Shown here piece by piece: positions 263 through 29,563 of a stretch of DNA of 53,119 bases. The notes under the pieces are model-generated. The model made no database searches. It saw only the letters and a program-made list of their open reading frames with translations, and was not told the origin of the DNA. The stretch spans positions 1 through 53,119 of IMG/VR virus record IMGVR_UViG_3300046511_000171; one strand, 5' to 3'. Within the stretch, counting starts at the first letter, position 1, and each line of letters opens with the position of its first letter. The position numbers were made by a program, and so were the translations under genes. This DNA comes from a virus.

Positions 263-2185
263 ATGCCAGAGTTCGCCAGCGCGATGCCTCAGTTTTTCAA
301 CACGGGCAACGCATCGTTCGACAAGTTGAACAGCCTTGGATCGTTGTTCGGTGATCCCGCTAAAGCCGCCCAGGCCGGTTACTACGGCGCTGAAAGCGCC
401 AACGCGCTCATCAAGGGCTACCAAACCCGCGACCAGATGGGTCAGCAGCGGTATTTGCAGGAACTCACGGGCGGTGGGGCGGGCACCGGTCCCATGGCGA
501 TCCCGGGACCAGCCGCGCCGCCGGGACCAGAGGCGCCCCCGGGGCTGGTCATTCCCGGGACCAACGTGGGCGCGCCGCCCCAACCCACCGCCGCGCCGTC
601 GTCCCCGTCGCTGGCGAGCATCGTGGCGCCGGGAGCGCCCGGCGGCGCCACGCCGACCGCCGCTCCGGGTCCCGCGCCGCCGGGGGGCGGCGTGAGACAG
701 GCACCCCCGGCGCAGGCGAACGGCTCGCCAACCCCTCCCATGGTGAACCTGCCCTATCTCATGGCGACGGCGGCACGCGCGGGCATGGACCCGAACGTGG
801 TGAAACTCCTGGGCACGTCCTGGATCAACGGGCAAATCCAGTCTGGTGCCATGGACAAGGCCACGGGCGAGCGGTTCCTGTCCGGCGCCGGGGACAGCGC
901 GCCCTTGCAAGCCACGACAGCCATCACGACCGCCGGCATCCAGAGCCGCACCACCCTGGCGCTGCCAGGAGCGCAGACGGCGGCGACGCAGACCTTGGAA
1001 GACGAGAAACCGCTTGTCGTCATCGCGCCCGATGGAACGCGTATTCCAACCAAAGTGGGCATATGGCGCCAGAACCCCGCCATGGGACGGCCCGAAAACC
1101 AATACGACCAGCAACCCGTGACGGTGCAACCGCCGACACCGCCGGGCGGCGCGGCGCCGCCGCCCGTCATGACATCGACGGGACAGGCGACGACGCAGGG
1201 CCAGACGCCCTACGAGCCAACGCAGGCCGCGCACGACAAGAACAATATCTCCATCGTCACGCCGCAGGGCGAGGTCATCACCACCACCGAGGGCGGTTTG
1301 CGCGCGAACCCCGCGCTGGGCCGCAAGTACGACTCGCAGGTGGACGGCGCGCTGGTGGCGTCGGTGGACCCGGCCACGGGACACACGATCTGGCGGTTGG
1401 CCCGCAACGCCGAGGGAACGCGGGTGGGACCGGCGACCACCGATCAGGCGAACGCGCAGGCGGTGACGCGCGCGGCGGCGTTGGACGAGACCGGCAGTCC
1501 CCTGGCCGACACGGTCATGGGTGCCTACCAGCGGGCGCAACTGGGCCTGACGCCGAGGCAGATGATCAACCCGGACCAGCACGCCCGGATGAAGATGGAA
1601 AGCGACGCGTATTTCCAGAGCCTCTACCCGGTACCGAGCGGACCGCATCTTTTCACGTCCACCGGCCCGGTCCGGCCATCCCAGGACTCCATGGCGCTGC
1701 ACGACAGCATCACGCGCTCGCTGGAGACGACTTCTTACAAGACCGACCCCGCCGCCGCCGCGACCAAAGCCTGGGACATGATGCGCGAAGCCGGTGTCCT
1801 GGACGACCCGGCGACCGCCAGGAGTGTCGGGGTCAGACACATGGGCACCGAAGACCCGAGGCGGACGAACGCGGACGAACTCATCATCAACAGCGATATG
1901 AGCAAGGTGGGCAACCTCAAATGGCCCGGCGCCGGGCCGCGCGGGGCGCCTCCCGGCTTCACGCCGCCCACGGCGAAGACCCTTACCGATACCGTGGCAC
2001 CAAAGACAGCGGGACCGCGCGCCGCCTCGACGAAGATGCCACCCGGCGCGCTGGCGCCGGCCCCGCCGGGGGCGGTTGAAGGTCAGACCGCCACCGGTCC
2101 CGGCGGCCTCAGGGCCGTCGTACAGGGTGGCTGGCTGATGCCTTTGCAAAACGCGGCGTCCGGCGCGGGGGGCGGCGGCGGATGA
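263..2185 (+). CDS. Pro/Gly-rich virion-associated protein (640 aa), paralogue of 50725-53019
   Basis: I do not recognise a catalytic family. The protein begins with a short variable head, then a segment shared with the 764-residue protein at 50725 (QAGYYGAESANALIKGYQTR near residues 37-56). A Pro/Gly/Ala-rich linker follows. Next comes a conserved core (MVNLPYLMATAARAGMDPN onward, about residues 160-390), including a small beta-rich stretch around KPLVVIAPDGTRIPTKVG. The C-terminal third has little likeness to the paralogue. Its place between internal virion genes and the transglycosylase suggests a virion or ejection role (inference). ATG 263 follows the previous stop by 10 bases. The gene ends in a run of Gly codons. 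Confidence 0.8.
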   Translation: MPEFASAMPQFFNTGNASFDKLNSLGSLFGDPAKAAQAGYYGAESANALIKGYQTRDQMGQQRYLQELTGGGAGTGPMAIPGPAAPPGPEAPPGLVIPGTNVGAPPQPTAAPSSPSLASIVAPGAPGGATPTAAPGPAPPGGGVRQAPPAQANGSPTPPMVNLPYLMATAARAGMDPNVVKLLGTSWINGQIQSGAMDKATGERFLSGAGDSAPLQATTAITTAGIQSRTTLALPGAQTAATQTLEDEKPLVVIAPDGTRIPTKVGIWRQNPAMGRPENQYDQQPVTVQPPTPPGGAAPPPVMTSTGQATTQGQTPYEPTQAAHDKNNISIVTPQGEVITTTEGGLRANPALGRKYDSQVDGALVASVDPATGHTIWRLARNAEGTRVGPATTDQANAQAVTRAAALDETGSPLADTVMGAYQRAQLGLTPRQMINPDQHARMKMESDAYFQSLYPVPSGPHLFTSTGPVRPSQDSMALHDSITRSLETTSYKTDPAAAATKAWDMMREAGVLDDPATARSVGVRHMGTEDPRRTNADELIINSDMSKVGNLKWPGAGPRGAPPGFTPPTAKTLTDTVAPKTAGPRAASTKMPPGALAPAPPGAVEGQTATGPGGLRAVVQGGWLMPLQNAASGAGGGGG

Positions 2186-2225
2186 GCGCGGTAGCAGCTC
2201 ATGTGAGTGAGCGGAGCGAACGAAC

Positions 2226-2795
2226 ATGAGCGATATTGACAGCATGATCCGGGGCGCCGCCGAGAAATACGGCCTGGATCACGACATATTCCGCCGCCAG
2301 TTGGTGGCCGAAAGCGGGCTCAACCCGAACGCGCGCAACCCGTCCGGCGCCGCCGGCATCGCGCAGTTCATGCCCGGCACCGCGCGCGGCCTGGGGATCG
2401 ACCCGATGGACCCGTCCCAGGCGATCCCGGCGGCGGCGCTCTACCTGCGCCAGAACCTGAACAAGTTCGGCGGCGACTACACGCACGCCCTCGCCGCCTA
2501 CAACTGGGGACCGGGCAACGTATCGCGGAACGGCGTGGGCAACCTGCCCTCCGAGACCCGAAACTATATCGCGAAGATCATGGGCGGCAGCGGCGGCGGT
2601 CCCCCGGCGCCGACCGGCCCACTCCCATCAGCGGGACCGGACGCGCCAGCCGGACCGTTGATGGCGGCGGCGGCGCCGGCTGGTCCTCCCCTGCCCTTGC
2701 CGCCGCCGCCACAAGATCCCGCCACCCCGGGCGCGCCCACGTCGCTGGCGGATGCTTTCACCCAGGCCGCGCGGCGCGGCCAGGGTCTCGCCTAG
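2226..2795 (+). CDS. Lytic transglycosylase, SLT domain (virion-associated)
   Basis: The first 100 or so residues form a goose-lysozyme-like SLT domain. The catalytic Glu is E29 in ESGLNP, followed by GIAQFMPGTA (44-53) and AYNWGPGN (91-98), the classic motif order for soluble lytic transglycosylases that cleave peptidoglycan glycan strands. From about residue 125 the chain becomes Pro/Ala-rich and probably disordered. There is no signal peptide, as expected for an enzyme carried in the virion that opens the wall during DNA entry. A GGAG element lies about 9 bases before ATG 2226. The start of a second copy, with MANIDDMIRG for MSDIDSMIRG, is cut off at the right end of the window. Confidence 0.9.
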   Translation: MSDIDSMIRGAAEKYGLDHDIFRRQLVAESGLNPNARNPSGAAGIAQFMPGTARGLGIDPMDPSQAIPAAALYLRQNLNKFGGDYTHALAAYNWGPGNVSRNGVGNLPSETRNYIAKIMGGSGGGPPAPTGPLPSAGPDAPAGPLMAAAAPAGPPLPLPPPPQDPATPGAPTSLADAFTQAARRGQGLA

Positions 2796-3299
2796 ATGTC
2801 CGGCGCCCAGACCGATCCGCTGGACATGACGGATCAGTACAACACGCCGCTCACGCCCGAGGGCGAGACGCAATACCAGCAATGGCTGACGCAACAGTCC
2901 CAGGCGGCGGGCCGGGACATGTCTCGCGATACCTACGACTATGACATGCGCGGTGCTTTTCTTGGCGGTGCCGGTCGAGCGGGCAACGGGCACTATCCCG
3001 ATACTTACAAGAAACCCAACCACCCCAGCTTTTCGGATCAGAGCCAGTATAACGGCGCTGACGGTCATCAGGGCGGCGCGTGGTCGCAGGCGCCCGGCGG
3101 CGCCTGGCAGTTCACGCCCGGCCCCACCAACCTTCAGATGCACGGTCCCGCCGGCTTGCAAAACTACTTCCAACGGGGGGACCCCGGCGTGATCCTGAAC
3201 CTGCCCCCGGCGCCCCCGGCGCCGGTCCCGCCAGCGGCGCCCCCGGCGCCCATGTCAATGCTGGACTATGTCCGCGCGGCGATGACGAGGAACGGTTAA
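2796..3299 (+). CDS. Hypothetical protein (167 aa)
   Basis: The ATG directly follows the stop of the transglycosylase gene, and its own stop directly abuts the ATG of the giant gene at 3300, so the three genes are tightly coupled. The protein is rich in Gln, Gly, Pro and Asp with no membrane segment. A low-complexity Pro/Ala stretch lies near the C-terminus (about residues 130-155), followed by a short helical end. I recognise no family. Its position suggests an internal virion or ejection component (inference). Confidence 0.75.
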   Translation: MSGAQTDPLDMTDQYNTPLTPEGETQYQQWLTQQSQAAGRDMSRDTYDYDMRGAFLGGAGRAGNGHYPDTYKKPNHPSFSDQSQYNGADGHQGGAWSQAPGGAWQFTPGPTNLQMHGPAGLQNYFQRGDPGVILNLPPAPPAPVPPAAPPAPMSMLDYVRAAMTRNG

Positions 3300-6200
3300 A
3301 TGCCGCCGCCGCTGGACGACACCAGTTCGACGCCGGGGGTAGAACTACCTGACTTCGACAAGCTGGTTCCCTTGGGGCAAGCGGCGCAGCCGATCCAGCC
3401 CCAGTCCCAGCCCCAGGCGCAGACACAACCCCAGCCCCCGGTGCCGCTGCCGGACTTCGACAAGCTGGTCCCGTTGGGACCGGTGGCGCAGCCCCAGCCC
3501 CAGGCACAGGCCCAACCACCGGTTGAACTGCCTGACTTCGACAAGCTGGTCCCGCTGGGACCGGCGGCGCAACCGGCGCCGTCCACGTCCGAGCCCGTGG
3601 GGTTTTTATCCTCCCTGTTCGGCGGGATCGGCGCGTCAGGCCGCGAAGCCGGGCAACTCGCCACGGGTGAAGGCTTCAACCCCGCCAACGTCCAGGAACA
3701 GCCTGAACGCACTTTCATGGGCGGCGTGGGCTACGGGCTGGGGCACTCGTTCCCCACGCTGGCCGGCATGGTGCTGGGCGCGGCGGGCGGCGGCGCGGCG
3801 GGGACCGCCATCGAACCGGGCTTCGGCACGGCGGTTGGAGGTGCCCTGGGCGGCGCCGCCGGGGGCGGCGTGACCGACTTCGTGCAAAGCCTTGTCCCGG
3901 CCTACCAGGACGCCATCAGGCGGGGCGCCACGCAGGATGAAGCGGTCGACGAAGCCTACAAGATGGCCGGCGCGTCGGGTGCTTTCACGGGCGTCACCGC
4001 GCCCTTGTTCGGGCTCAGCCCCTTCAAATCCGTGATTAAGGACCTGCTGTTCCACACCCTGGTCACGGGTCCCGGGACCGGCGTGGTCAAACAAGGCGTG
4101 ATCGACCCGGCGGTGACAGGCCAGCCCACGCCCGGCCTGGGCGAACTGGCCGAGGGCGCCGTGCAGAACGCCATCGGCGGCGGCATCGCCGGGGGCGTCA
4201 TGCACTACGGTCCCCAGCTTGGCCGGCGGATCGTGGGTCTGCCTACCACATCCGGTGAGACAGCCACCCCAGCAGGACCAGACACGTCACCGTCGATAGC
4301 ACCGACAGGCCCAGCGCCAACCAGCACAGACATTCCACCGCGACCCACGCCTTTCACCGATCTGGTCCGTCCCCCGCCCGAGGGCGTGGCGCCGGGCGAG
4401 GCCGTGCCGATCACGACGCCGACGCCTGAGCCTCCACCCATACCACCAAGGGAGACACCCCCGAATGCCACCACAGCCCAACCCCGTCCCGGCGAGCCCG
4501 CCGCCGCCCCTGTTATTCCCGAACCGCCCGCCGCTGTCCCGACCGGCGCGGAAACCGCCCGTCCTGGTATGGAGCCGACCGCCCGTCCAGTTGGAACTAT
4601 TCCCGTGGATGAAACCCGTCCCGGCGAAGTTCGACCCGCTGGAGTGGAAGGGCCAGCCCCTCCTGCCCCGGAACCCGCCGCCCCAAGCGTAGCGCCCACG
4701 GCGGTCCCGGGACAGCGTGAACCTGTCCCGGGACAAGCCGAACCCCCGGACAAAAATACCTTACCCCCGGACAAAAATACTCCGGCGCCTGAAACCCCGG
4801 GCACCCCCGCATATAAGTTGGCCGAACTGGATCGGATCAACGCCCCGGACGAAGCCTACCGCGACGCCCTTTCGACCGGGTCCAAGGACCCGCTCAAACC
4901 GGGCGAAACATGGCGGGACCGGCTCGTTAAGTGGGTGGACCAGGAACGCGCCGCCGCGACCGCCGGGGAAGCCGAGACTTCCGCACAGGGAGCGAACGCA
5001 CCGGGAACAACCCCGGCGGTGGTCCCGAGGGAGCCCGCTTCGGCGGAACCGCCGCCCGCATGGCGCGCGAAGAACCCGGACATTCCAGCCACGCTTTACC
5101 GAGGCTCCGGGCGCGAGGACCAGACAGGCGTCTACAATCCCGCCGGGGGCACGCCGGTCCCGATCCTGGGACCTGGGCGCTATCACGCGTTCACCGAGGA
5201 ACACGCCAAGACCTACGGCCCGAACATCGAGACCACGCCCAACGATCTGCGCAACCCGCTGATTATCCGGTCCGACAACGAGTGGCGAGCCTTGACCCGG
5301 GAAGCTGGATGGGAGTTTCCCAACCCGTTCGGGGCTGACAAGGCCAAGGTCGAGACCATGACGAACGACATGCGCGAACTGGTCCAGTCCAAGGGCCATG
5401 ACGGCGTGATCGTCACGTTCGACACCAAGACCGACCGGGACGTGGACAGCCAGGGCCGGGGGATAAAGACCCTCCGTAACGTGTTCGACGTGCCCCAGGT
5501 GGTGGACTACCGCGCCCGTGAAACGCCGGGGGCACGGGTGACGGACCAGGAAGCGCCCGGCACCCTGGAGTCCCGCGCGGGCTTCCGGCGCAAGGCCCCG
5601 GCGCCGGGCGAGCCCGAGCCGACGCCGAACCGGGTCCGCGCCAAACCCCCGGGCGAACCCGTGGTCACGCCCCACCCGGGCGATCCGCTCACCCTGGAGG
5701 ACTACGCCTACAGCAGGGGCACGTCCGCTTACCGCGACGCGCCCGAGGAAGCCTTGCGCGGGACCGGGATCAACCCGAAGACCTTCACCAACCGGCCCAT
5801 CCTGGAACAGAACAAGATCCTGGCCGATCAACTCAAGGCCAAATACGGTTTCACCAACGTCGATCTTGAACCCCGCACGGTCACGGTCACGCCGGACGGC
5901 AAGACCCGGACGCATCCCGCCGTGGAGCCGAAGATCACGCGCGATTGGCTGCTGAACGTCCATCACAATATGCAAAACATGGCCCACGCGCTGGGCTGGA
6001 GTCAGGAAACCGTCGCGTTGAACGGGCGCCTGGGCCTGCATCTGGTGCCCTACAACTTCAAGGGCGAAAACTGGTATGGCAGCTACAGTTTCGCGGACAA
6101 GACCATTCACATTTCAGGCGGTTCCAACAGCTACGCGCACGAGCATTGGCACGCCATCGACGACTATATGACCGATCTGCTGCACAATAATCCGAACAAA

Positions 6201-10322: not shown

Positions 10323-13088
10323 TCAGGCGTCTTTCCGGTAGCGCCGGCCTATCGTCGCAGCCGCCGCGACGGGCAGTCCCGGCGCCCAAACGGGTGCCCG
10401 GTTCATCGCTCGTGACAGCCAGGCCCGGGCGTCCTCGGCGCGTGCCTGGGGGACCTCGGAGATCAGTTCGTCATGCACGGTCGCGATCAGGGGCGGACCC
10501 TTGCGGTGCACCCGGATGATCGCTTCGGCCATGACATCGCGGGCGATGGCCTGGACGATGTTCTCGCAATTGTGGACGATCAGGGGACCGGTCCGGCCCG
10601 CGACTACGAAGCGACGGCGGCTTCCGGCGTTGACAAGGTCGTAGACTTTTTGCGCGGAGCGCGCCGGTTGGCTGCTTGCTCCGTGCTGGTCTTCCAGGCA
10701 CAGTTTTCCGGTGAATACCCGGCGTCGTTGTCGATCCGGTCGATACTCAGTCCCGGCTGATACGTCGGCCCCATGTCGCGCCAGAACGCCTCGAAAGACA
10801 CCTGCCACTCCGGGCAGACCGTGATCCCGCGCCCCCCGTAGTTCTTCCACGCCTGATGCGTGGGCAACCTGCATCGGTCGTTCATCGAACGCCAAACCCA
10901 GAAAACCGGATGCTTTGACATACCGTGCGTGATCCGGCTCTGACTGATGAGCGCGAACCGCTGGCACCCGCAGGACTTCACCTTTCCCTTGATAAAGTCC
11001 GACCGGCGCATGGACTTCGTCGTCCCGCAGTCGCAACGCACCAGCCACACGGCTTCGCGTTTGCGGGTCGGAACACCAGGACGTGTAACGGCTTCCTGGC
11101 GCGTCAACGCCGTCAGGGAGTTCGACCGGAGCCCGGTCAAGTCCAGTGGAAAACTCGGCATGGCGCCAGCCCTCAATCGTTAATACTTCATGGCCCGGCG
11201 TCATGGAGACGCCATCCAGTGCAATGCAGTCCGCGATCCCGTTACAAATCAAACCGTCATGGCTGACCCAGGCGTCGCTGTCCCAGACACGGTTGGCCCG
11301 GGAAACTAACTGAATGGGGAGCCACCCTTGCTCTGTCAAGACTAAAGTGCCCTCCGCCAGACACAGTTTCCCTGGCCAGGACCGCACCCACGCCCATCGC
11401 CCTTGCTCGACGCCCCGGTAGACGAACTCCAGGTGGCCGTGGTCGGGGTGCCGCCGCACATGGGGCTCGCGGTAGACCAGCGCCCGGCCACTTGGCAGGA
11501 CGATGTCCAGGCTCTGGGGCCGGCGGGCGAAGACCATGCCCCGGAAGCTGACCGCCGAACCCACCGGGCCGGCGGCGACAGCCAGGGCGATCTTGTGGGC
11601 TTCCCACCACATATGCACGACATGGTGGTTCAAACCCCGCCAGCCGGCGACGGCGTCTTCGGCCTCGCCCTCGGTGAGCGTGACGCCGAACGTCCGGGCG
11701 GTGTCGCGGAACCGCCGTGGTCCCATGCCGAAGCCGGTCGCCAGGACCAGGACCTTGCCGAACTGGCGGTTGTCCGAACCCAGGGACTTCGCCGTGTAGG
11801 TGTAGACATCCTCGTCCCGGCGGAATAACTCGACGACATCGTCCTGCCCGGCCAGCCACACCAGGACCCGGGCTTCGATCTGGGAAAGATCGCAGGACAC
11901 CAGCATGTGCCCCGGCGCCGCCTCGATCACGGATCTGAGCATCGACGCCAGGACACCCATGGGGCTGTCCTCAAAGAGAAGGTCCAGGTCCTCGACGGTC
12001 GCGCCCTCGTTGACCAGATCCACGGCGGCGTGCGGGTCCTTGATCGTGCCCCTGGGAAAGTTCTGCCATTGCACACCGCGTCCGGCCCAGCGCCCGGTCC
12101 TGCTGGCACCGTAGTATTGGAACCCGCCCCGGACCCTGCCATCGGCTGACACCCGGTTCCTGATGGTGGTCAGCTTCGCCGTGCTGGACCGAGACACGTC
12201 CCGGCGGCAGCGCAGGACGGCGCTGACATGGCTGGGCAGACCGGGACGAGCAAGCATCCCCTCGACCGCCTCACGGCCCAGGGTGGGCCTGGGAGGCTTG
12301 CCGTGGCCCGGGTCCAGCATCGGGACCGGGGTGTCGTTGTCGGTCAGCCACGTGACCAGCTTGCCCACCTGAGCGCCGGACGTGATCTGGCCATTGGTCA
12401 ACCGATTGATCCGGTCGTTGATGCGCAGCTTCTCGGCGTCGCTCAACGTCCGCATCCGGTCCACCAGGGACAGGTCCACGCGCACGCCCCTTTGGTTGAT
12501 CGCGTGATCGGCCAGGAAGATTTCGTACTCGCGGGGGCTCAACTCGGGGACCGCGCCATCCAGTTCGCGTTCCGCCGCCACGTCCTGGGCGCAATAGGAG
12601 ACCAAATGCGCGAAGCGTGCCGGGTCCGTCTCGTGCCACCACGTCAGCGGGTTGAGGCTCCGGGGCCGGGCAAATCTCAGCATCAGGTCCCGGGCGGACG
12701 CGTCCTTCTGGATGGCGAGCCCCAGCGCGTGGCCCGCCAGTTCAAGGCTGGCCGGCAGGCCGGCGACCAGCGCGCGGGCCATGGTGCAGGACCATTGGGT
12801 GAGTTGGATCGGCGGGAAGCCAAGCGGGACCAGCACCGCCGCCCAGATATTCAACTCGAAAAGGTAATTATGCGCGACGACCACGCATCCCGAGACAATC
12901 GCCGCGCGCAGATCGTCAGGGCAGGGACCGCCGGTCCAGGTTCGCACGGGTCCCCGCCCAAGGGCGTAACAAAGCACGGTGACGCGCGTGGACGGATCGT
13001 TCGCGTAGACGCTGGACCCGACCACGCGCAAGTCGGCTAAACTCGTGGTCTCCAGGTCCAGGACAAGCCTAGCATCGCGGTTGGGCAT
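10323..13088 (-). CDS. Family A DNA polymerase with 3'-5' exonuclease domain, interrupted by an intein
   Basis: The host protein is about 656 residues once the 265-residue intein is removed. The N-terminal DEDD exonuclease shows LDLETTS (D11, E13), AHNYLFEL (about 72-79) and YCAQDV (D169). The polymerase domain shows motif A (CDLSQIEARV, D400), a motif B-like RQFGKVLVLATGFGMG (441-456) and motif C (VHDEL, D873 in the unspliced chain). Extein numbering breaks at L575/C576 and resumes at C841, within the conserved GKL-CENIVQAIARD block, so activity should depend on splicing. The gene ends the leftward early operon, and its ATG 13088 overlaps the stop of the preceding gene by 20 bases. It is likely the phage replicative polymerase. 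Confidence 0.93.
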   Translation of the reverse strand: MPNRDARLVLDLETTSLADLRVVGSSVYANDPSTRVTVLCYALGRGPVRTWTGGPCPDDLRAAIVSGCVVVAHNYLFELNIWAAVLVPLGFPPIQLTQWSCTMARALVAGLPASLELAGHALGLAIQKDASARDLMLRFARPRSLNPLTWWHETDPARFAHLVSYCAQDVAAERELDGAVPELSPREYEIFLADHAINQRGVRVDLSLVDRMRTLSDAEKLRINDRINRLTNGQITSGAQVGKLVTWLTDNDTPVPMLDPGHGKPPRPTLGREAVEGMLARPGLPSHVSAVLRCRRDVSRSSTAKLTTIRNRVSADGRVRGGFQYYGASRTGRWAGRGVQWQNFPRGTIKDPHAAVDLVNEGATVEDLDLLFEDSPMGVLASMLRSVIEAAPGHMLVSCDLSQIEARVLVWLAGQDDVVELFRRDEDVYTYTAKSLGSDNRQFGKVLVLATGFGMGPRRFRDTARTFGVTLTEGEAEDAVAGWRGLNHHVVHMWWEAHKIALAVAAGPVGSAVSFRGMVFARRPQSLDIVLPSGRALVYREPHVRRHPDHGHLEFVYRGVEQGRWAWVRSWPGKLCLAEGTLVLTEQGWLPIQLVSRANRVWDSDAWVSHDGLICNGIADCIALDGVSMTPGHEVLTIEGWRHAEFSTGLDRAPVELPDGVDAPGSRYTSWCSDPQTRSRVAGALRLRDDEVHAPVGLYQGKGEVLRVPAVRAHQSEPDHARYVKASGFLGLAFDERPMQVAHASGVEELRGARDHGLPGVAGVFRGVLARHGADVSAGTEYRPDRQRRRVFTGKLCLEDQHGASSQPARSAQKVYDLVNAGSRRRFVVAGRTGPLIVHNCENIVQAIARDVMAEAIIRVHRKGPPLIATVHDELISEVPQARAEDARAWLSRAMNRAPVWAPGLPVAAAATIGRRYRKDA
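10569..11363 (-). other. Intein (Hint domain) inside the DNA polymerase, 265 codons
   Basis: The intein runs from C576 to N840 of the unspliced protein. Block A is CLAEGTLVLTEQGW. Block B has the T-x-x-H form in MTPGHEV. Block F is VYDLVNAGSRRRF and block G is LIVHN followed by C841 as the +1 nucleophile. N-terminal Cys, C-terminal His-Asn and a +1 Cys are the expected splicing residues. In the intein's own frame, about 170 residues between blocks B and F look like no known domain. That stretch is the shadow frame of a complete HNH gene (10604-11161). The insertion point is a highly conserved polymerase motif, as usual for inteins. Confidence 0.9.
10604..11161 (-). CDS. HNH homing endonuclease nested inside the intein, +1 frame
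   Basis: The 185-residue protein is read one base out of phase with the intein. It shows the layout of a phage HNH family: an N-terminal LTG...L block, RCDCG and KSCGC cysteine pairs, THGMSKHPVFWVWRSMNDRC, YGGRGITVCPEW, then LSIDRIDNDAGYSPENCAW and a basic tail. ATG 11161 is preceded by GAGGG about 12 bases upstream; TTG 11176 is an alternative start. Both the HNH frame and the intein frame are open through the whole stretch. It is likely a free-standing homing endonuclease that replaced or occupied the intein's endonuclease position. Expression as a separate protein is inferred, not shown. Confidence 0.85.
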   Translation of the reverse strand: MPSFPLDLTGLRSNSLTALTRQEAVTRPGVPTRKREAVWLVRCDCGTTKSMRRSDFIKGKVKSCGCQRFALISQSRITHGMSKHPVFWVWRSMNDRCRLPTHQAWKNYGGRGITVCPEWQVSFEAFWRDMGPTYQPGLSIDRIDNDAGYSPENCAWKTSTEQAANRRAPRKKSTTLSTPEAAVAS

Positions 13089-19718: not shown

Positions 19719-20111
19719 GTGATCGAACTGCTCACGCAGCGGGAAGCCGCCGCGCTGTTGCGCTGCGGGCTCTCCAAGATCCAGGCGCTGCGCCGCGACG
19801 GCAAGCTGCCTTATTTGCCGGGACGACCGGTTCTCATACCCAAAGTGGAAATCGAAAAGTGGCTCTCAAAAAACATCAGGTCAGCAAGCCCACGCGAAGC
19901 CCCCGCCGTCCCGGCGAAAGCGACAACGAGTGGACGGTTCGCAATGCGTATCTATGGCAAAAGCCCACCGGTCGCTGGGTCATCAAACACACCGACATCA
20001 TCCTCAAAGCCGATGGCACGACCGATCACCGCACCAACGAGCAAGCCTGCTACACCGCTGATCGGACCGAGGCCGAAGACAGGTTCACGCTCTGGAAGCA
20101 GGATCGGCTGA
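19719..20111 (+). CDS. xis: Excisionase-like HTH_17 protein, 3' part overlapping int
   Basis: GTG 19719 lies 7 bases after the reconstructed repressor stop. Residues 4-52 form a MerR/excisionase-type winged helix: LLTQREAAALLRCGLSKIQA, then LRRDGKLPYLPGRPVLIPKVEIEKWL. The rest of the 130-codon frame overlaps the integrase gene by 253 bases in another phase and looks low-complexity. Its real C-terminus may therefore be non-conserved, or the frame may be open by chance. The role is likely directional control of the integrase. The order repressor-xis-int is a standard lysogeny cassette. Confidence 0.65.
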   Translation: MIELLTQREAAALLRCGLSKIQALRRDGKLPYLPGRPVLIPKVEIEKWLSKNIRSASPREAPAVPAKATTSGRFAMRIYGKSPPVAGSSNTPTSSSKPMARPITAPTSKPATPLIGPRPKTGSRSGSRIG

Positions 20112-21037
20112 CACCCAAACAAGCGACGGGCGCGCCTCTCACGTTCGCGCGACTGGCGGACAACTATGTAGCGACGACCCAGACCCAGCGGCTGACCCGT
20201 GCACAGGATCACACGGTCAACAAGCTGGCACAGGTCCTGGGACACTACCCGGCGGACCGGATCACCGAACAGAAGCTGGCCGAACTGCACCGCGACATCC
20301 TCGCCGCCGGCTGGTCCCAGGGCACCGCGCGGCGCCATCTGAGCGTGGTGGTGACGGTCCTGAAGTGGGGCGCCAGGAACCGGATCATCCCGCGCGACGC
20401 CGTGCCCGTCTACCAGATGCCGCCGGTCACGGCGCCACGGAACTACACGCTCACATCCGAGGAAGACGCCCGCGTCTTCGATCTGGCGGTGCAATGGTTA
20501 AAACGCGCTGACGACGTGAACCGCCGCGCCGCGCTGTTCGCGTGCATCGCGCTGGACAGCGGTCAGCGCCGGGACGCGATCCTGGAACTGACCTGGGACC
20601 GTATCGACCTGACACCGGGACACGAGTTCATCGACTTCGTGAACCCGGACTATCAGCCCAAAAACAAGCGGCGCTGCGCTGATGTCTTCGTGACGGATCG
20701 GCTGCTCGCGGTCCTGAAGCGTGAAGCCTTCCACGCGCCGAAGTCACAGGGCAAGCCCACGGGACCCTTGTTCGCCAGCCATCGCCTGATGCGCGGCTTT
20801 GATCGTTTCAAAGCGGACGCCGGCCTGCCCCGTCTCACGCCGCACGTATTCCGTCACACCTTCGCCACGCTCAGAATACAGCAGGGCTGGACCGTGGCCG
20901 ACGTGGCGCACATTTTGGCGGACAACCCGGCGACCGTGGCCCGCGTGTATCTTCACAACGCTGGCGTATCGGTCCGCGAAAACGCGCGGCGCGTTGACGC
21001 CATGCGCCGCGCCTACAACGACAACCGCGCGGCGTGA
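19859..21037 (+). CDS. int: Tyrosine recombinase, phage integrase
   Basis: The protein has 392 residues from GTG 19859. It has an N-terminal arm-binding-like part, a core-binding SAM-like domain (about 90-180: TFARLADNYVATT, TARRHLSVVVTVLKWG) and a catalytic domain (about 195-385). Catalytic residues visible are R237 (SGQRRDAILEL), H329 and R332 (PHVFRHTFAT) and the nucleophile Y364 (ARVYLH); K268 or K270 lies in the expected hairpin. The usual LGH just before the nucleophile reads LAD here. It would integrate and excise the prophage at an att site I could not locate. Confidence 0.92.
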   Translation: MALKKHQVSKPTRSPRRPGESDNEWTVRNAYLWQKPTGRWVIKHTDIILKADGTTDHRTNEQACYTADRTEAEDRFTLWKQDRLTPKQATGAPLTFARLADNYVATTQTQRLTRAQDHTVNKLAQVLGHYPADRITEQKLAELHRDILAAGWSQGTARRHLSVVVTVLKWGARNRIIPRDAVPVYQMPPVTAPRNYTLTSEEDARVFDLAVQWLKRADDVNRRAALFACIALDSGQRRDAILELTWDRIDLTPGHEFIDFVNPDYQPKNKRRCADVFVTDRLLAVLKREAFHAPKSQGKPTGPLFASHRLMRGFDRFKADAGLPRLTPHVFRHTFATLRIQQGWTVADVAHILADNPATVARVYLHNAGVSVRENARRVDAMRRAYNDNRAA

Positions 21038-25256: not shown

Positions 25257-25457
25257 TCAGCGGTTTGGCAGGGTGTGGGGTGAGATACCGGCGGCGCGGC
25301 ATAGCCTGTGAAACTCAGCGGTGGCCGCGTCCAGTGCTTCGCGCGTCCAGACGGCGGAGCCGTCCGGGCGGGCTTCGGGGTGTTGGCGCATCCAACGGTT
25401 GCCGGCATCGGTCGCGGCGGCGCGGATCATGCGCATATCCAGCGTGGGGCGCGTCAT
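25257..25457 (-). CDS. Hypothetical protein (66 aa)
   Basis: ATG 25457 overlaps the VWA gene stop (ATGA at 25454-25457). The product is helical and Ala/Arg-rich (RMIRAAATDAGNRWMRQHPE; ALDAATAEFHRLCRAAGISP). No family is recognised. It is part of the MoxR-VWA operon by overlap. Confidence 0.65.
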   Translation of the reverse strand: MTRPTLDMRMIRAAATDAGNRWMRQHPEARPDGSAVWTREALDAATAEFHRLCRAAGISPHTLPNR

Positions 25458-27442
25458 GCGCCCAGATCCGGCGCGGCTTCCTCAAGCATCCGCGCCAGCA
25501 CACCCAAACCGGTTTGACCAAGCGCGGCCAGGGTCGGCACGTTGACGCTGTGACCGTCCGGGAAAGCCGCCGCGACCTGGGGCGCGGCCATGCCCACGCC
25601 AACAACCTCAACGCCCCACGTCCTGGCGACAAGGCAGGCATCGGTCACGCAAGCATTGCCATAATCACAATCGCCATCGGTCAGGACCATCATGACGTGG
25701 CGCGTGGCGTCAATGGTTCGCAGGACTTCGGCGCAACCCAGAATGGCAGGGCTCAGCGGCGTCGTGACATGCGGTTGCGCGGCCATGATCCGGTGTGCGT
25801 TGGCGCGTACGGCCATGCCGAACGGCAAGAGCGGGATAAGCCGCGCGCTCGCCACGTCAACGATATCATTGTCCTGGAAGCCATACACGGCCACCTTGGC
25901 GCCGGCATCTTCGGCAGCGGCGGCAAGGTGGAACGCGGTCACACATGCCATGGCGTGCGCCGTGCCTCGCATTGACGATGACAGGTCGATCAGGACCAGA
26001 AGCGCGGTATCCATGCCGGGGGTCTCTTGCTTCCGGCTGAATACGTCCAGGGCGCCCGTGCCGATGCGCGCGAGGGCGCGGCGATCGAGCCGGCCCGACG
26101 TTTCGCGGTGTGTCACCGACACCCGTTCCGGCGAGACCAGCAACCGCGATATCTGGCCATGCAACACCGCGCGTCCAGGCAATGCCGCGTTGTATGCCGC
26201 GACATGCGGCATGGGATCGGCGCGCGACACGTGGGACGGCAACGCCACGGTCACATTGCGATATCCATGCAGGCCGCTGCCCATGGGCGCCGGCGCATCG
26301 GGCGCCTGGCGCTCCGTGATGGCTTGCGTGACTTCGGCCAGGGTTTCGCTCGCTTCGGGCGCATCGTCCAGGCTGTAAGTCTCCGAACCATCGTCGTGAC
26401 CGGCGCCAGGGGCGTCCTGGCCGCTCTCAGGGGCGTCCTGGCCATCCTGAGCCTCGCCAGCCTCGCCATCGGCGCCATCGGCGCCAGGGGCGTCCTGGCC
26501 GCTCTCAGGGGCGTCCTGGCCATCCTGAGCCTCGCCAGCCTCGCCATCGGCGCCAGGGGCGTCCTGGCCGCTCTCAGGGGCGTCCTGGCCATCCTGAGCC
26601 TCGCCAGCCTCGCCAGCCTCGCCATCGGCGCCAGGGGCGTCCTGGCCGCTCTCAGGGGCGTCCTGGCCATCCTGAGCCTCGCCAGCCTCGCCAGCCTCGC
26701 CATCGGCGCCAGGGGCGTCCTGATCCTCTGGTGGCGCGGGCGGTGGCGGGGGCGGTGTGTTAGCCGCGATAATCTGGCGTTCCAGGTCCACCATGCGCAT
26801 GGCCAGATTGTAAACGTCATACGTTGAGCGGCAGGATTTAACTTCCGTCAAAGCCTGATCGACAAGCCGCGCCACGTCCGGGTGTAGCGCGCCACGCAAG
26901 CCCCTCGCCGCGGGCACGGTGTAGCGGTTGGCCATCCTGCCCAAGATCGCCACGCAATAGGGCGCGTCGGCAATCCTGGCGCCGATGGTGCGACCGTCTT
27001 TCGCGGCGCGCGTCAAACCCTGGTAGTGAACATGATCGGTCGTCGCGCTCAGGATGCCGCGCAAGGCGGGAAAGTGTCCCGCGCGGAGTTCCTTTGCCTC
27101 AATGCGCACGTCCTCCAGGCAATTTGCCCAATGGCGCGTCCTGGCGCCGGCTTGCACGCAATGGTGCCACCATTGCCAGTCCGTGTGCAGCACGTGCAGA
27201 CACTCGTGGGCGATGAAGCCCAGCATCCTGTCCGCTTCGGACCGGGACAGCACGGTGGACGCCGGCAGGCTCGGGAGGTTCATGATGACCGTGCTGCCAT
27301 GGACCTGGACCGACGCGGTGGCGCCACCCTTGGCGCCAACGGTGATGCGCACGGGGCGATTGTTCGCCCCTTTGCGCTGCGCGATGATTTTACCGGCGGT
27401 CTCAGCGGCGGCGGCGGTTACTTCAAGGTAAAGTGTGTTCAT
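25454..27442 (-). CDS. VWA-domain protein with HExxH motif (CobT/DUF2201-like)
   Basis: The 662-residue protein starts at ATG 27442. The N-terminal part has FIAHECLHVLH (HExxH, H79-H83) and NCLEDVRIEAKEL, as in putative metallopeptidase domains fused to VWA. A Pro and Asp/Glu/Gly/Ala-rich linker follows, with four tandem repeats. The C-terminal VWA domain (about 478-662) has the metal site LIDLSSSM (D486) and VLTDGDCDYG. The partner MoxR ATPase is encoded just upstream, 1 base apart. CobS-CobT and MoxR-VWA pairs act as ATP-driven chelatase or remodelling machines. CobT-like genes are known in phages, but their role there is unsettled, and I do not assign a substrate. Confidence 0.82.
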   Translation of the reverse strand: MNTLYLEVTAAAAETAGKIIAQRKGANNRPVRITVGAKGGATASVQVHGSTVIMNLPSLPASTVLSRSEADRMLGFIAHECLHVLHTDWQWWHHCVQAGARTRHWANCLEDVRIEAKELRAGHFPALRGILSATTDHVHYQGLTRAAKDGRTIGARIADAPYCVAILGRMANRYTVPAARGLRGALHPDVARLVDQALTEVKSCRSTYDVYNLAMRMVDLERQIIAANTPPPPPPAPPEDQDAPGADGEAGEAGEAQDGQDAPESGQDAPGADGEAGEAGEAQDGQDAPESGQDAPGADGEAGEAQDGQDAPESGQDAPGADGADGEAGEAQDGQDAPESGQDAPGAGHDDGSETYSLDDAPEASETLAEVTQAITERQAPDAPAPMGSGLHGYRNVTVALPSHVSRADPMPHVAAYNAALPGRAVLHGQISRLLVSPERVSVTHRETSGRLDRRALARIGTGALDVFSRKQETPGMDTALLVLIDLSSSMRGTAHAMACVTAFHLAAAAEDAGAKVAVYGFQDNDIVDVASARLIPLLPFGMAVRANAHRIMAAQPHVTTPLSPAILGCAEVLRTIDATRHVMMVLTDGDCDYGNACVTDACLVARTWGVEVVGVGMAAPQVAAAFPDGHSVNVPTLAALGQTGLGVLARMLEEAAPDLGA
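26403..26725. repeat. In-frame tandem repeats in the VWA gene
   Basis: Units begin at 26403, 26481, 26550, 26628 and 26706, giving periods of 78, 69, 78 and 78 bases (26 or 23 codons). They encode acidic repeats such as DGQDAPESGQDAPGADGEAG. All lengths are multiples of three, so unit gain or loss keeps the frame. Protein-coding content and lack of spacers rule out a CRISPR array. Confidence 0.9.
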
Positions 27443-27443
27443 A

Positions 27444-28994
27444 TCAGGCAACCTCGTCTTCGGTTTCGCCCATGGTATCAGGCGAAACGGGATCAAAATC
27501 ACGCGCGGCGGGCGACGATGACGGGACCGGCGCGGCGGGGTTCAACGCGGCGCGAACGGTGTTCTTGTCCACGGCAAGCAAACACTGTTGGCGCAAAGCC
27601 TCTTGTTCGCCGTCCGGGACACAATTTTGCACGGCGCAACGGAACGCGAGTTCAGGATCATGGCCATCGGCCAGCAACCCCGCCCATGCGAACAAGCGGC
27701 GCAAGCCCAAACCTTCCGTCAATACCTGAGCGTCAGCCGCCGCGCGTGTCGTTGTCGCGGCTTGCACCAGGAGGTTGGCCAGTTCAATCGTGCAACCCGG
27801 GACATATGAAACGATAATGCCCGCCTCAACGTCCGGCGCGTGCCAGCCAAGTTTGATCCTGACGCCGAAACGGTCCAGGGTCGCGGCGTTGAGCGCCTGT
27901 GTCCCGTGGTAGCCGACCCTGGAACCCCCGCCCATGCCGCTTGTGTTATCGGTGGCGAAGAAAATCACGCCAGGGGCGACCTTCACCTTCTGTCCCGTTT
28001 CCTGGACGTAAAGGCTGCGATTGGCGGTCAAAACATTCTGCAACGCGAACAACGCGCCAGGACGCGCGATTGAGGGTTCGTCAATGCACACAACGGCGCC
28101 CGGGGTTTGAATAGCGCGCACAAGCTGTCCCGGTTGAAACGACACGCCTTTACCGTCCCGGGCCGGGACCGTCATGCCTACCAGCGTGGCCGCGTCCGTG
28201 CTGGCGTCACAGGAAATCAGCACGAAGGGTCGGCCCAAACGCGCGGCGATTTGTTGCGCGAACTCCGTCTTGCCCGTGCCTTTGGGACCAAAAAGCATGA
28301 CATTATGACCGCGCCGGATCTCTGTGAGAGCTATCGCGGTTTCCGCCGGCCAAACGTAACGATCATTGACGCACGGCGTATCAGGATGCGCGCCATCCCA
28401 CACCGTCGCGGTTTCGTTTCCAAGAGCGCCGCGCACGCCAAACGCTTTGCGCCATGTCACGGTGACATCCGTTGGCGCGGCGCGCGGGGTGGTCGTGTCC
28501 TGATCGCGCTCAACCTCAACGGTGACAGTCTTTGTGACCACCTTGACCACAGCCGGCTTGCGCGCGGCTATGACGAGGTCCCGGAGCCTCTGATCCAGGG
28601 CGGTAAAGCCGCCGGTCATGATATCGGCGCGCACCGCCTGGACCGTCGCTTCAATGGCGGCGGCGTCATCATTATCAGTCGGGACCGTGGCGCCAGCGGC
28701 GGCGTCGGTATCAGCCGGCGGCGTCATCAGGTCCCGTTCGTCATCATCGGTATCGGTGTCAGCCATCGGCGTGGCTCCCGGGACATGCGAAGGGTGCAGC
28801 ATCATCGGATCAATGCCGACGATGCGAAGCAAGCCGCGCAAGTCAGCCTTTGTCAGATTGTTGATAAGCCGCCCGTTGAGGTTCAGGCGCGCGGCTTGCG
28901 CGTCGATATCATTGGGGTCGGCATTGGCGAGCCGGTCGCGCAAAGCGGCGCGCATGGCGGTGCGCCAAACGGCGCTAGGTGTGGCGTTAGACAT
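27444..28994 (-). CDS. MoxR/CobS-like AAA+ ATPase
   Basis: ATG 28994 gives 516 residues. The N-terminal 180 residues contain a small helical domain and acidic linkers. The AAA+ module has Walker A LFGPKGTGKTEF (236-243 core), Walker B VVCIDEPS (301-308), sensor 1 VIFFATDN (343-350) and an arginine-rich region LDRFGVRIKL. A second-lobe helical region follows. It lies directly upstream of the VWA/HExxH protein gene and would power it, as CobS does CobT or MoxR does its VWA partner. It is the first gene of the leftward cassette, divergent from 29147. Confidence 0.85.
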   Translation of the reverse strand: MSNATPSAVWRTAMRAALRDRLANADPNDIDAQAARLNLNGRLINNLTKADLRGLLRIVGIDPMMLHPSHVPGATPMADTDTDDDERDLMTPPADTDAAAGATVPTDNDDAAAIEATVQAVRADIMTGGFTALDQRLRDLVIAARKPAVVKVVTKTVTVEVERDQDTTTPRAAPTDVTVTWRKAFGVRGALGNETATVWDGAHPDTPCVNDRYVWPAETAIALTEIRRGHNVMLFGPKGTGKTEFAQQIAARLGRPFVLISCDASTDAATLVGMTVPARDGKGVSFQPGQLVRAIQTPGAVVCIDEPSIARPGALFALQNVLTANRSLYVQETGQKVKVAPGVIFFATDNTSGMGGGSRVGYHGTQALNAATLDRFGVRIKLGWHAPDVEAGIIVSYVPGCTIELANLLVQAATTTRAAADAQVLTEGLGLRRLFAWAGLLADGHDPELAFRCAVQNCVPDGEQEALRQQCLLAVDKNTVRAALNPAAPVPSSSPAARDFDPVSPDTMGETEDEVA

Positions 28995-29146
28995 GGGGTG
29001 TTCGTGCTTTCCAAGAGTTAGGGGTGTTTCGTTGGGGTGCAGGACAGTCAAGGCAAGGCAAGGCCCTAAATAGCGCCACCATGGCCAAGCACAACAACAA
29101 ACATGGTCCTGCTTGTGTTTTTCTTCAGGACCGGCATCATCCGGCC
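28995..29146. promoter_or_regulatory. Divergent intergenic region with short hairpin
   Basis: This region lies between the leftward MoxR gene and the rightward gene at 29147 and so should contain a promoter in each direction. A 7-bp inverted repeat GGTCCTG/CAGGACC (29105-29132) lies just before ATG 29147. A triple AAGGC repeat lies near 29061-29074. No clear -35/-10 pair was found. An in-frame ATG at 29081 could lengthen the rightward gene. Confidence 0.4.
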
Positions 29147-29563
29147 ATGAGTGAAACCAACATATCGCCAAGGCGGTCCGGGGGCGGGTGGAAGGGCAAC
29201 CCGGCCAGCATCGTGGCGCTGCACAAATATCGGGTGTCGTTGGCGGACCCGAACCTTCGGCGCTGTGTGCGGTGCCGACAGGTAGCCATGCGAGGGTTAT
29301 TGACCTGTCGGGTGCATGGCCATCGGCGCGGGCGGGACACGCCAGGAAGGTTGGCGGGACGTGTCCTGGACCAAATGAACCGGCGCGGCTTGCTGCCGAT
29401 GGAACTCATGCTCACGGCGGTATGGCGGGACATGGTCAAAGCGCCACGGAACCGATGCGAGCCAGCGAGGTTGGCGCTTGTCCTGGCGTGGGACAGGCGG
29501 GAAAGCGAGCCGCTGGCGTGGGCAAGGGCGTGGCGCGCGGCGCTCGCCGTGGTCCCGGTATGA
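29147..29563 (+). CDS. Small zinc-finger-like protein (138 aa)
   Basis: The product starts MSETNISPRRSGGGWKGNP, then has C-x2-C ... C-x2-HG (CVRCRQVAMRGLLTCRVHGH), like the short zinc-binding heads seen in some phage small terminase and DNA-binding proteins. The rest is Arg- and Ala-rich and helical. The stop overlaps the next ATG as ATGA. A DNA-binding role is plausible; a terminase small subunit is possible but unproven, as the large subunit lies 8 kb away. ATG 29081 is an alternative start. Confidence 0.55.
   Translation: MSETNISPRRSGGGWKGNPASIVALHKYRVSLADPNLRRCVRCRQVAMRGLLTCRVHGHRRGRDTPGRLAGRVLDQMNRRGLLPMELMLTAVWRDMVKAPRNRCEPARLALVLAWDRRESEPLAWARAWRAALAVVPV

Follow-up and report, generated by a model that had tools for sequence, protein, structure and literature searches.

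The DNA polymerase gene of the viral contig IMGVR_UViG_3300046511_000171, analysed over its full 53,119 nucleotides (the window), is interrupted by an insert that is very probably a mobile cis-splicing intein, with its homing endonuclease encoded by an overlapping gene that is translated on its own. Sequence comparison further makes it likely that this element belongs to a class of phage inteins so far unrecognised, here called "overprinted", in which the endonuclease would be an independent gene in another frame, initiated internally, so that splicing and cutting are uncoupled. Such a class would include two or more relative frames (+1 and +2) and two or more HNH subgroups, and it would apparently occupy two host genes.

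The polymerase intein and the gene inside it

The interrupted ORF matches family-A DNA polymerases in profile searches (PHROG_17, 1e-95; Pfam DNA_pol_A, 2e-18). The intein starts with CLAEGT after ...SWPGKL and ends with LIVHN before CENIVQAIARD, with MTPGH as block B and VYDLVNAG as block F (Table 1). In an alignment of 51 inteins, C1, T55, H58, D242, H264 and N265 are invariant, and all residues expected of a class 1 cis-splicing (Hint) intein are present, with Cys at position +1. A RecA mini-intein was matched by profile (1e-6), as expected of a Hint fold. The two intein halves lie on one continuous ORF and not on separate genes as in a split ("fractured") intein, while the HNH sequence at +1 sets the element apart from a bifunctional intein with an in-frame endonuclease domain. 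The preliminary description, made from the sequence alone, had placed a 265-residue intein with all splicing blocks here, and its limits proved exact, with the catalytic residues present. Pfam alone named neither the HNH protein nor the intein of the window. An Rfam scan of the window gave no match, and a group I intron or other catalogued RNA was therefore dropped as a candidate.

The AlphaFold2 model of the intein predicts a disordered middle between two confident Hint halves. Foldseek searches with this model retrieved mini-inteins (DnaB, DnaX, RecA, gp41-1), most of them at probability 1.00, and all top matches were inteins or intein-like domains. The model of the HNH frame reached a mean pLDDT of 88, and Foldseek found no clear PDB match for it. 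By profile, the nested protein belongs to PHROG_374 "HNH endonuclease" (1.3e-54 over residues 5-173), and the nearest enzyme is I-HmuI (E 0.05). Cutting activity is presumed, since Asp-Arg (or Glu-Arg) stands in place of the Asp-His of the I-HmuI HNH motif, in nested and other family members alike. The window protein keeps every residue that is invariant in the family alignment and is without the HTH-like tail found at the C terminus of most relatives. In the intein, codon-step 61 (nt +184) is the point after which its frame is open. The coordinates and description given earlier for a 185-residue HNH gene with its own ATG and GAGGG, read +1 to the intein, hold, as does the claim that both frames are open together: the polymerase ORF runs through the intein and the HNH ORF is complete inside it. 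A GGRAAACTGTGYCTGG-like sequence (minus strand) occurs both at the intein start (11350-11375) and in the HNH gene (10640-10700, PENCAW codons), a resemblance that is probably due to chance.

Table 1. Features of the interrupted polymerase gene, in window coordinates.
Feature	Coordinates	Strand	Remarks
Family-A DNA polymerase precursor ORF, 921 aa	13088..10323	-	stop-free across the intein
N-extein, 575 aa, ends ...SWPGKL	11364..13088	-	43 relatives, mostly with uninterrupted site
Intein, 265 aa, C1 ... HN/C	10569..11363	-	invariant residues in alignment of 51
Hint N-terminal half, intein residues 1-90	11094..11363	-	AlphaFold2 pLDDT mostly 96-98
TAA in HNH frame, just 5' of the start	11180..11182	-	sequence
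GAGGG, Shine-Dalgarno-like, built from intein codons for E-G	11170..11174	-	8 nt before ATG
Nested HNH-family endonuclease gene, 185 aa plus stop	10604..11161	-	frame +1 relative to intein
Shadow-frame spacer, intein residues 91-230	10674..11093	-	AlphaFold2 pLDDT about 50 or below
Hint C-terminal half, residues 231-265, blocks F and G	10569..10673	-	AlphaFold2 pLDDT about 89-97
C-extein, C+1 ENIVQAIARD... up to stop	10323..10568	-	
Insertion and flanking divergent tract versus empty allele L259	10344..11400	-	37 nt upstream, ~225 nt downstream

Openness, constraint and predicted translation of the two frames

An alternative frame is often open in GC-rich DNA, and the intein middle might merely be permissive. 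Synonymous shuffling of the HNH codons of the window gave a mean of 3.6 stops in the intein frame and a probability of 0.0115 of finding none, a modest value because the DNA is 62% GC, and one that, not being overwhelming, leaves chance some room when the window is taken alone. Across 68 dereplicated nested genes, however, no stop was present in the intein frame against 490 expected from the same shuffling (7.2 each), and the third frame of these genes held a mean of 12.9. Members with AT-richer DNA (38-46% GC), for which up to 16.6 stops are expected, were equally open. In a scan keyed on the HNH protein, all 19 loci with an upstream Hint block had zero stops in that frame, whereas the 61 loci without one averaged 13.7; three of the latter had none, one of them being a truncated nested copy (L191). 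The shuffling and the Hint-less members together rule out openness driven by GC content, and we give a chance origin practically no credence.

The pattern of substitution distinguishes the two frames. Within the nested part, mismatches are most frequent at the third codon position of the HNH, which is position 1 of the intein; in the Hint blocks on either side they are most frequent at the third position of the intein codons. In eight close pairs, some of which are near-duplicates, changes silent in the HNH and altering the intein were 2.3 times as frequent as expected, and changes silent in the intein and altering the HNH 0.5 times. For the window and locus L278 the corresponding values were 1.97 and 0.39, and the HNH proteins of these two are 72% identical as against 41% for the shadow stretch. 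Substitution pattern and identity contrast thus identify the HNH as the real protein of the middle and the intein frame there as an open spacer. As judged from these sequences, protein-level selection acts on the HNH frame, including in the window/L278 pair, and the intein middle is kept mainly free of stops. This bears out the earlier view that the intein middle is encoded by the shadow frame of the HNH gene, a stretch that avoids stops and is otherwise little constrained.

Putative start sites of the nested genes fall at three main positions of the intein: at nt +187, where ATG follows GAGGT (codons of HEV); at +202, where ATG, GTG or TTG follows GAAGG- or GAGGG-like motifs (codons of EGW); and at +220, after AGGAG-like motifs. 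A Shine-Dalgarno motif with a start codon was present in 61 of 64 dereplicated nested genes, against 40.6 +/- 2.3 expected from synonymous resampling of the intein codons, a count partly prone to kinship as the test leaves shared ancestry in. The +187 and +202 starts are mutually exclusive (26 and 23 genes, respectively; both in none). Across loci, the point from which the HNH frame is open lies mostly between +163 and +220, with stops just upstream, and a promoter scan inside the intein found none. The excess of Shine-Dalgarno motifs and the exclusive starts make it more likely that ribosomes initiate internally on the mRNA of the polymerase. A Hint-HNH fusion like that of ordinary inteins could also arise if ribosomes underwent a programmed frameshift out of the intein frame into that of the HNH, which could account for the constant +1 offset in the main family, since the two parts would be joined by a shift of +1 (or -2) close to the junction. 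Such frameshifting is nevertheless highly improbable: the upstream stops close the HNH frame shortly before it begins and confine any shift to a short stretch (in the window, to the part past the TAA), nearly all nested genes have the motif and start of their own, versions at +2 exist too, and the shifted product would be without the C-terminal half of the Hint domain.

Recurrence and probable mobility

A search with the window intein as a single protein returned zero loci, and an alignment was required as the query. The alignment-based scan gave 80 IMG/VR loci and five genome loci, nearly all of which, when classified with HMMs, had the HNH out of frame (+1) and the host ORF open. The query of this survey included the shadow frame and so skewed it towards +1, for which reason a second scan was keyed on the intein N block alone (A3, 20 rows). 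In the 80 contigs kept from it, which were ranked by similarity to the N block of the window and not dereplicated, the HNH lay at +1 in 73 and at +2 in three and was absent in four. Among the 73, one contig had no detected C block, and L101 and L158 held short HNH remnants only. The four contigs without HNH comprise three mini-inteins of 117-135 aa and L140, whose polymerase carries a first intein without HNH and then a second intein. A relative with an in-frame HNH, which by the preliminary description would have told against its reading, was sought among the same contigs and was found in none of the 80.

A single sequence would look identical had compensating frameshift mutations or sequencing indels displaced an ordinary in-frame HNH intein, and the preliminary description had named two compensating frameshifts as its alternative. 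The same layout and junction, however, recur in dozens of independent contigs and in isolate phage genomes, the sister allele L278/L279 included, stops are avoided over hundreds of codons at deep divergence, and the in-frame form is missing from the survey. These contigs and the sister allele exclude the two frameshifts and rule out sequencing error or decay as the source of the window layout; the probability that we would leave to such a displacement is close to nil.

Searches with the intein frame (tblastn) detected the full intein in the Caulobacter phages RW, GB2A, RLK and KcrB, in Shewanella phage SFCi1 and in the APSE phages of Hamiltonella, with the HNH gene at +1 in each example that was read out. 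Isolate phages with an out-of-frame HNH intein include Caulobacter RW, Shewanella SFCi1, Salmonella Ent3 and APSE-1. The insertions lie a few residues at most from the GGKLxENxxQA motif of the polymerase; at some loci they lie at CNGA.Y-type flanks, which we take to be those of a helicase. Salmonella Ent3, Proteus ABTNLP14 and Pseudomonas MR14 have a different HNH subgroup, at +2 and at another polymerase site, and in Streptococcus Javan255 and Gardnerella AB1 the HNH is at +1 at a further site. Nine loci (L043, L049, L055, L075, L078, L080, L083, L085, L093) have the nested +1 layout between non-polymerase flanks (LLQY/CNGA.Y, QIS/CG.VYTD), their host gene probably being a helicase. Unannotated out-of-frame HNH ORFs of ~250 aa at +2 were observed in the polymerase inteins of L007 (Salmonella Ent3, 3090-3833), L014 and L009, and tblastn suggests that many Salmonella phage records share this ORF.

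Intact, truncated, deleted and bare forms are all present within one family. The polymerase of L098 (CAKZRW010000020.1, ORF 1003-4230) holds two inteins, the first with an intact +2 HNH and the second (157 aa) with only remnants of a +1 HNH. In two Arsenophonus loci (L094, L097) an APSE-like polymerase has a stop codon together with a broken HNH, as in a decaying prophage copy. The reading of the window as a nested composite, in which one frame splices and the other is an endonuclease gene, is supported, both functions being predicted; the notion that this architecture arose in the present phage is not, and the overprinted arrangement is old and shared rather than created here. That a mini-intein came first and was later joined by the endonuclease is plausible and no more, because the bare mini-inteins could be deletion derivatives.

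Comparison of the window with its polymerase relatives points to mobility. A scan with the N-extein gave 43 relatives, the nearest of which, L259 (98% identical) and L265 (97%), have an empty site (WPGKLT/ENIVQ), and L278 and L279, whose polymerases are ~55% identical, carry an intein at the same site with a compact HNH at +1. Directly after the site, the empty alleles L259 and L265 have Thr and the window has Cys, as splicing requires. Upstream of the insertion, the window and L259 differ by six mismatches within 37 nt and then by none for more than 220 nt; downstream, they differ by 24 mismatches within 225 nt and then by 0-1 per 60 nt over the next 180 nt. This flanking tract fits co-conversion of the flanks, that is, homing, in a manner that is suggestive rather than unique, as other divergent patches of the two polymerases lie at about -455 and beyond -1240. 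Sporadic insertion, empty sites and divergent flanks are thus found together in a gene that also has other mosaic patches. The whole unit of intein and HNH appears to have entered the window polymerase recently. Distance correlations (N-block/HNH 0.45, extein/HNH 0.39, extein/N-block 0.18), which are not the main evidence, weakly favour joint travel.

The nested HNH might instead be a relic without homing function, the intein having moved by ordinary recombination or through another endonuclease. The missing HTH-like tail of the window HNH and the retention of the intein where the HNH is broken or deleted (L064, the second intein of L098, L101, L158) agree with this, yet the HNH is the constrained frame, all family-invariant residues are kept, and L278 preserves the compact HNH at 72% identity in a polymerase that is ~55% identical. 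We therefore regard a relic as unlikely. On the favoured reading, the element would work as follows. The polymerase would be translated straight through, the intein middle emerging as a disordered stretch of ~140 residues that the shadow frame of the nested gene encodes; the Hint halves would then meet, excise the insert and restore the polymerase, as the conserved catalytic residues and predicted fold suggest. On the polymerase mRNA, ribosomes would also start inside the intein and produce the HNH protein, using an ATG, GTG or TTG that follows a Shine-Dalgarno motif formed by intein codons, a step to which the conserved start sites point. The HNH protein would presumably cleave polymerase alleles without the intein, at GKL/xENIVQ or close to it, and repair would copy the whole unit together with flanking DNA, in keeping with the empty sites and the flanking divergent tract.

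Relation to known elements

The usual description of an intein is a single polypeptide whose splicing domain is interrupted by an endonuclease domain, and in canonical homing inteins such as PI-SceI the two form one mobile unit. The present element shares with these the empty sites in relatives, but its endonuclease is encoded by a separate overlapping gene instead of an in-frame domain of the same polypeptide. A large phage family would thereby make the splicing and cutting parts as separate products of the same bases; cutting could be expressed apart from splicing and, if this is true, loss of the endonuclease by mutation or deletion would leave splicing untouched. Within one family it would be possible to see homing elements being assembled, decaying and invading anew. 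The arrangement would also be a long overlap of natural origin, with one functional frame and another that has only to remain open and to be removed by splicing, a route by which a second gene can be tolerated inside an essential gene.

The Hamiltonella phage APSE-1 (NC_000935) has, at the same site of its polymerase and again at +1, an intein and HNH homologous to those of the window, encoded by P45 (polymerase) and P46 (HNH), which its record annotates as overlapping CDS. The annotated P46 is 140 aa long with a late start, and the displayed record names neither the intein nor the composite nature of the locus. The Salmonella phages Ent1, Ent2 and Ent3 have a polymerase intein too, annotated in Ent3 as "encoding splicing domains"; the 248-aa HNH ORF inside the Ent3 intein is, however, at +2, of another subgroup and at another polymerase site, and no HNH feature is annotated at this intein. 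Genes overlooked in deposited phage genomes are thus indicated, and isolated phages (Caulobacter RW, Salmonella Ent3 and their relatives) make overprinted inteins testable.

Among published elements, the ShiLan domain (PMC11855218, 2025), an out-of-frame HNH in a phage methylase, comes closest. Both there and here a complete out-of-frame HNH gene lies in an insertion that is open in the host frame, with a disjunct distribution suggesting homing. The ShiLan insertion lacks the splicing motifs of an intein and is believed to remain part of the protein, and its authors detected no ribosome-binding site and proposed leaderless initiation (PMC11855218), whereas the window HNH is surrounded by a full Hint domain and the starts of its family carry Shine-Dalgarno motifs. 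PMC11855218 cites, in support of overlapping frames in actinobacteriophages, a preprint on actinobacteriophage inteins with a "non-canonical architecture" (bioRxiv 10.1101/2025.01.02.630785), and it also cites Gorbalenya 1998; going by that citation, the preprint may in part describe the overprinted class. In our other literature searches, no endonuclease gene lying out of frame within a splicing intein was described. One HNH locus without a Hint block (L209) has a -1 frame open for 339 codons (an overlapping ORF of 339 aa), which may be either chance or one more ShiLan-like insertion with an out-of-frame HNH.

Elsewhere in the window, an integrase gene (19859-21037; PHROG_1, 3.6e-33) indicates that the phage is probably temperate. 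Two adjacent genes on the minus strand (27444-29171 and 25454-27502) match the "porphyrin/cobalamin biosynthesis" PHROGs 249, 1576 and 5298 and are perhaps a CobS/CobT-like AAA pair.
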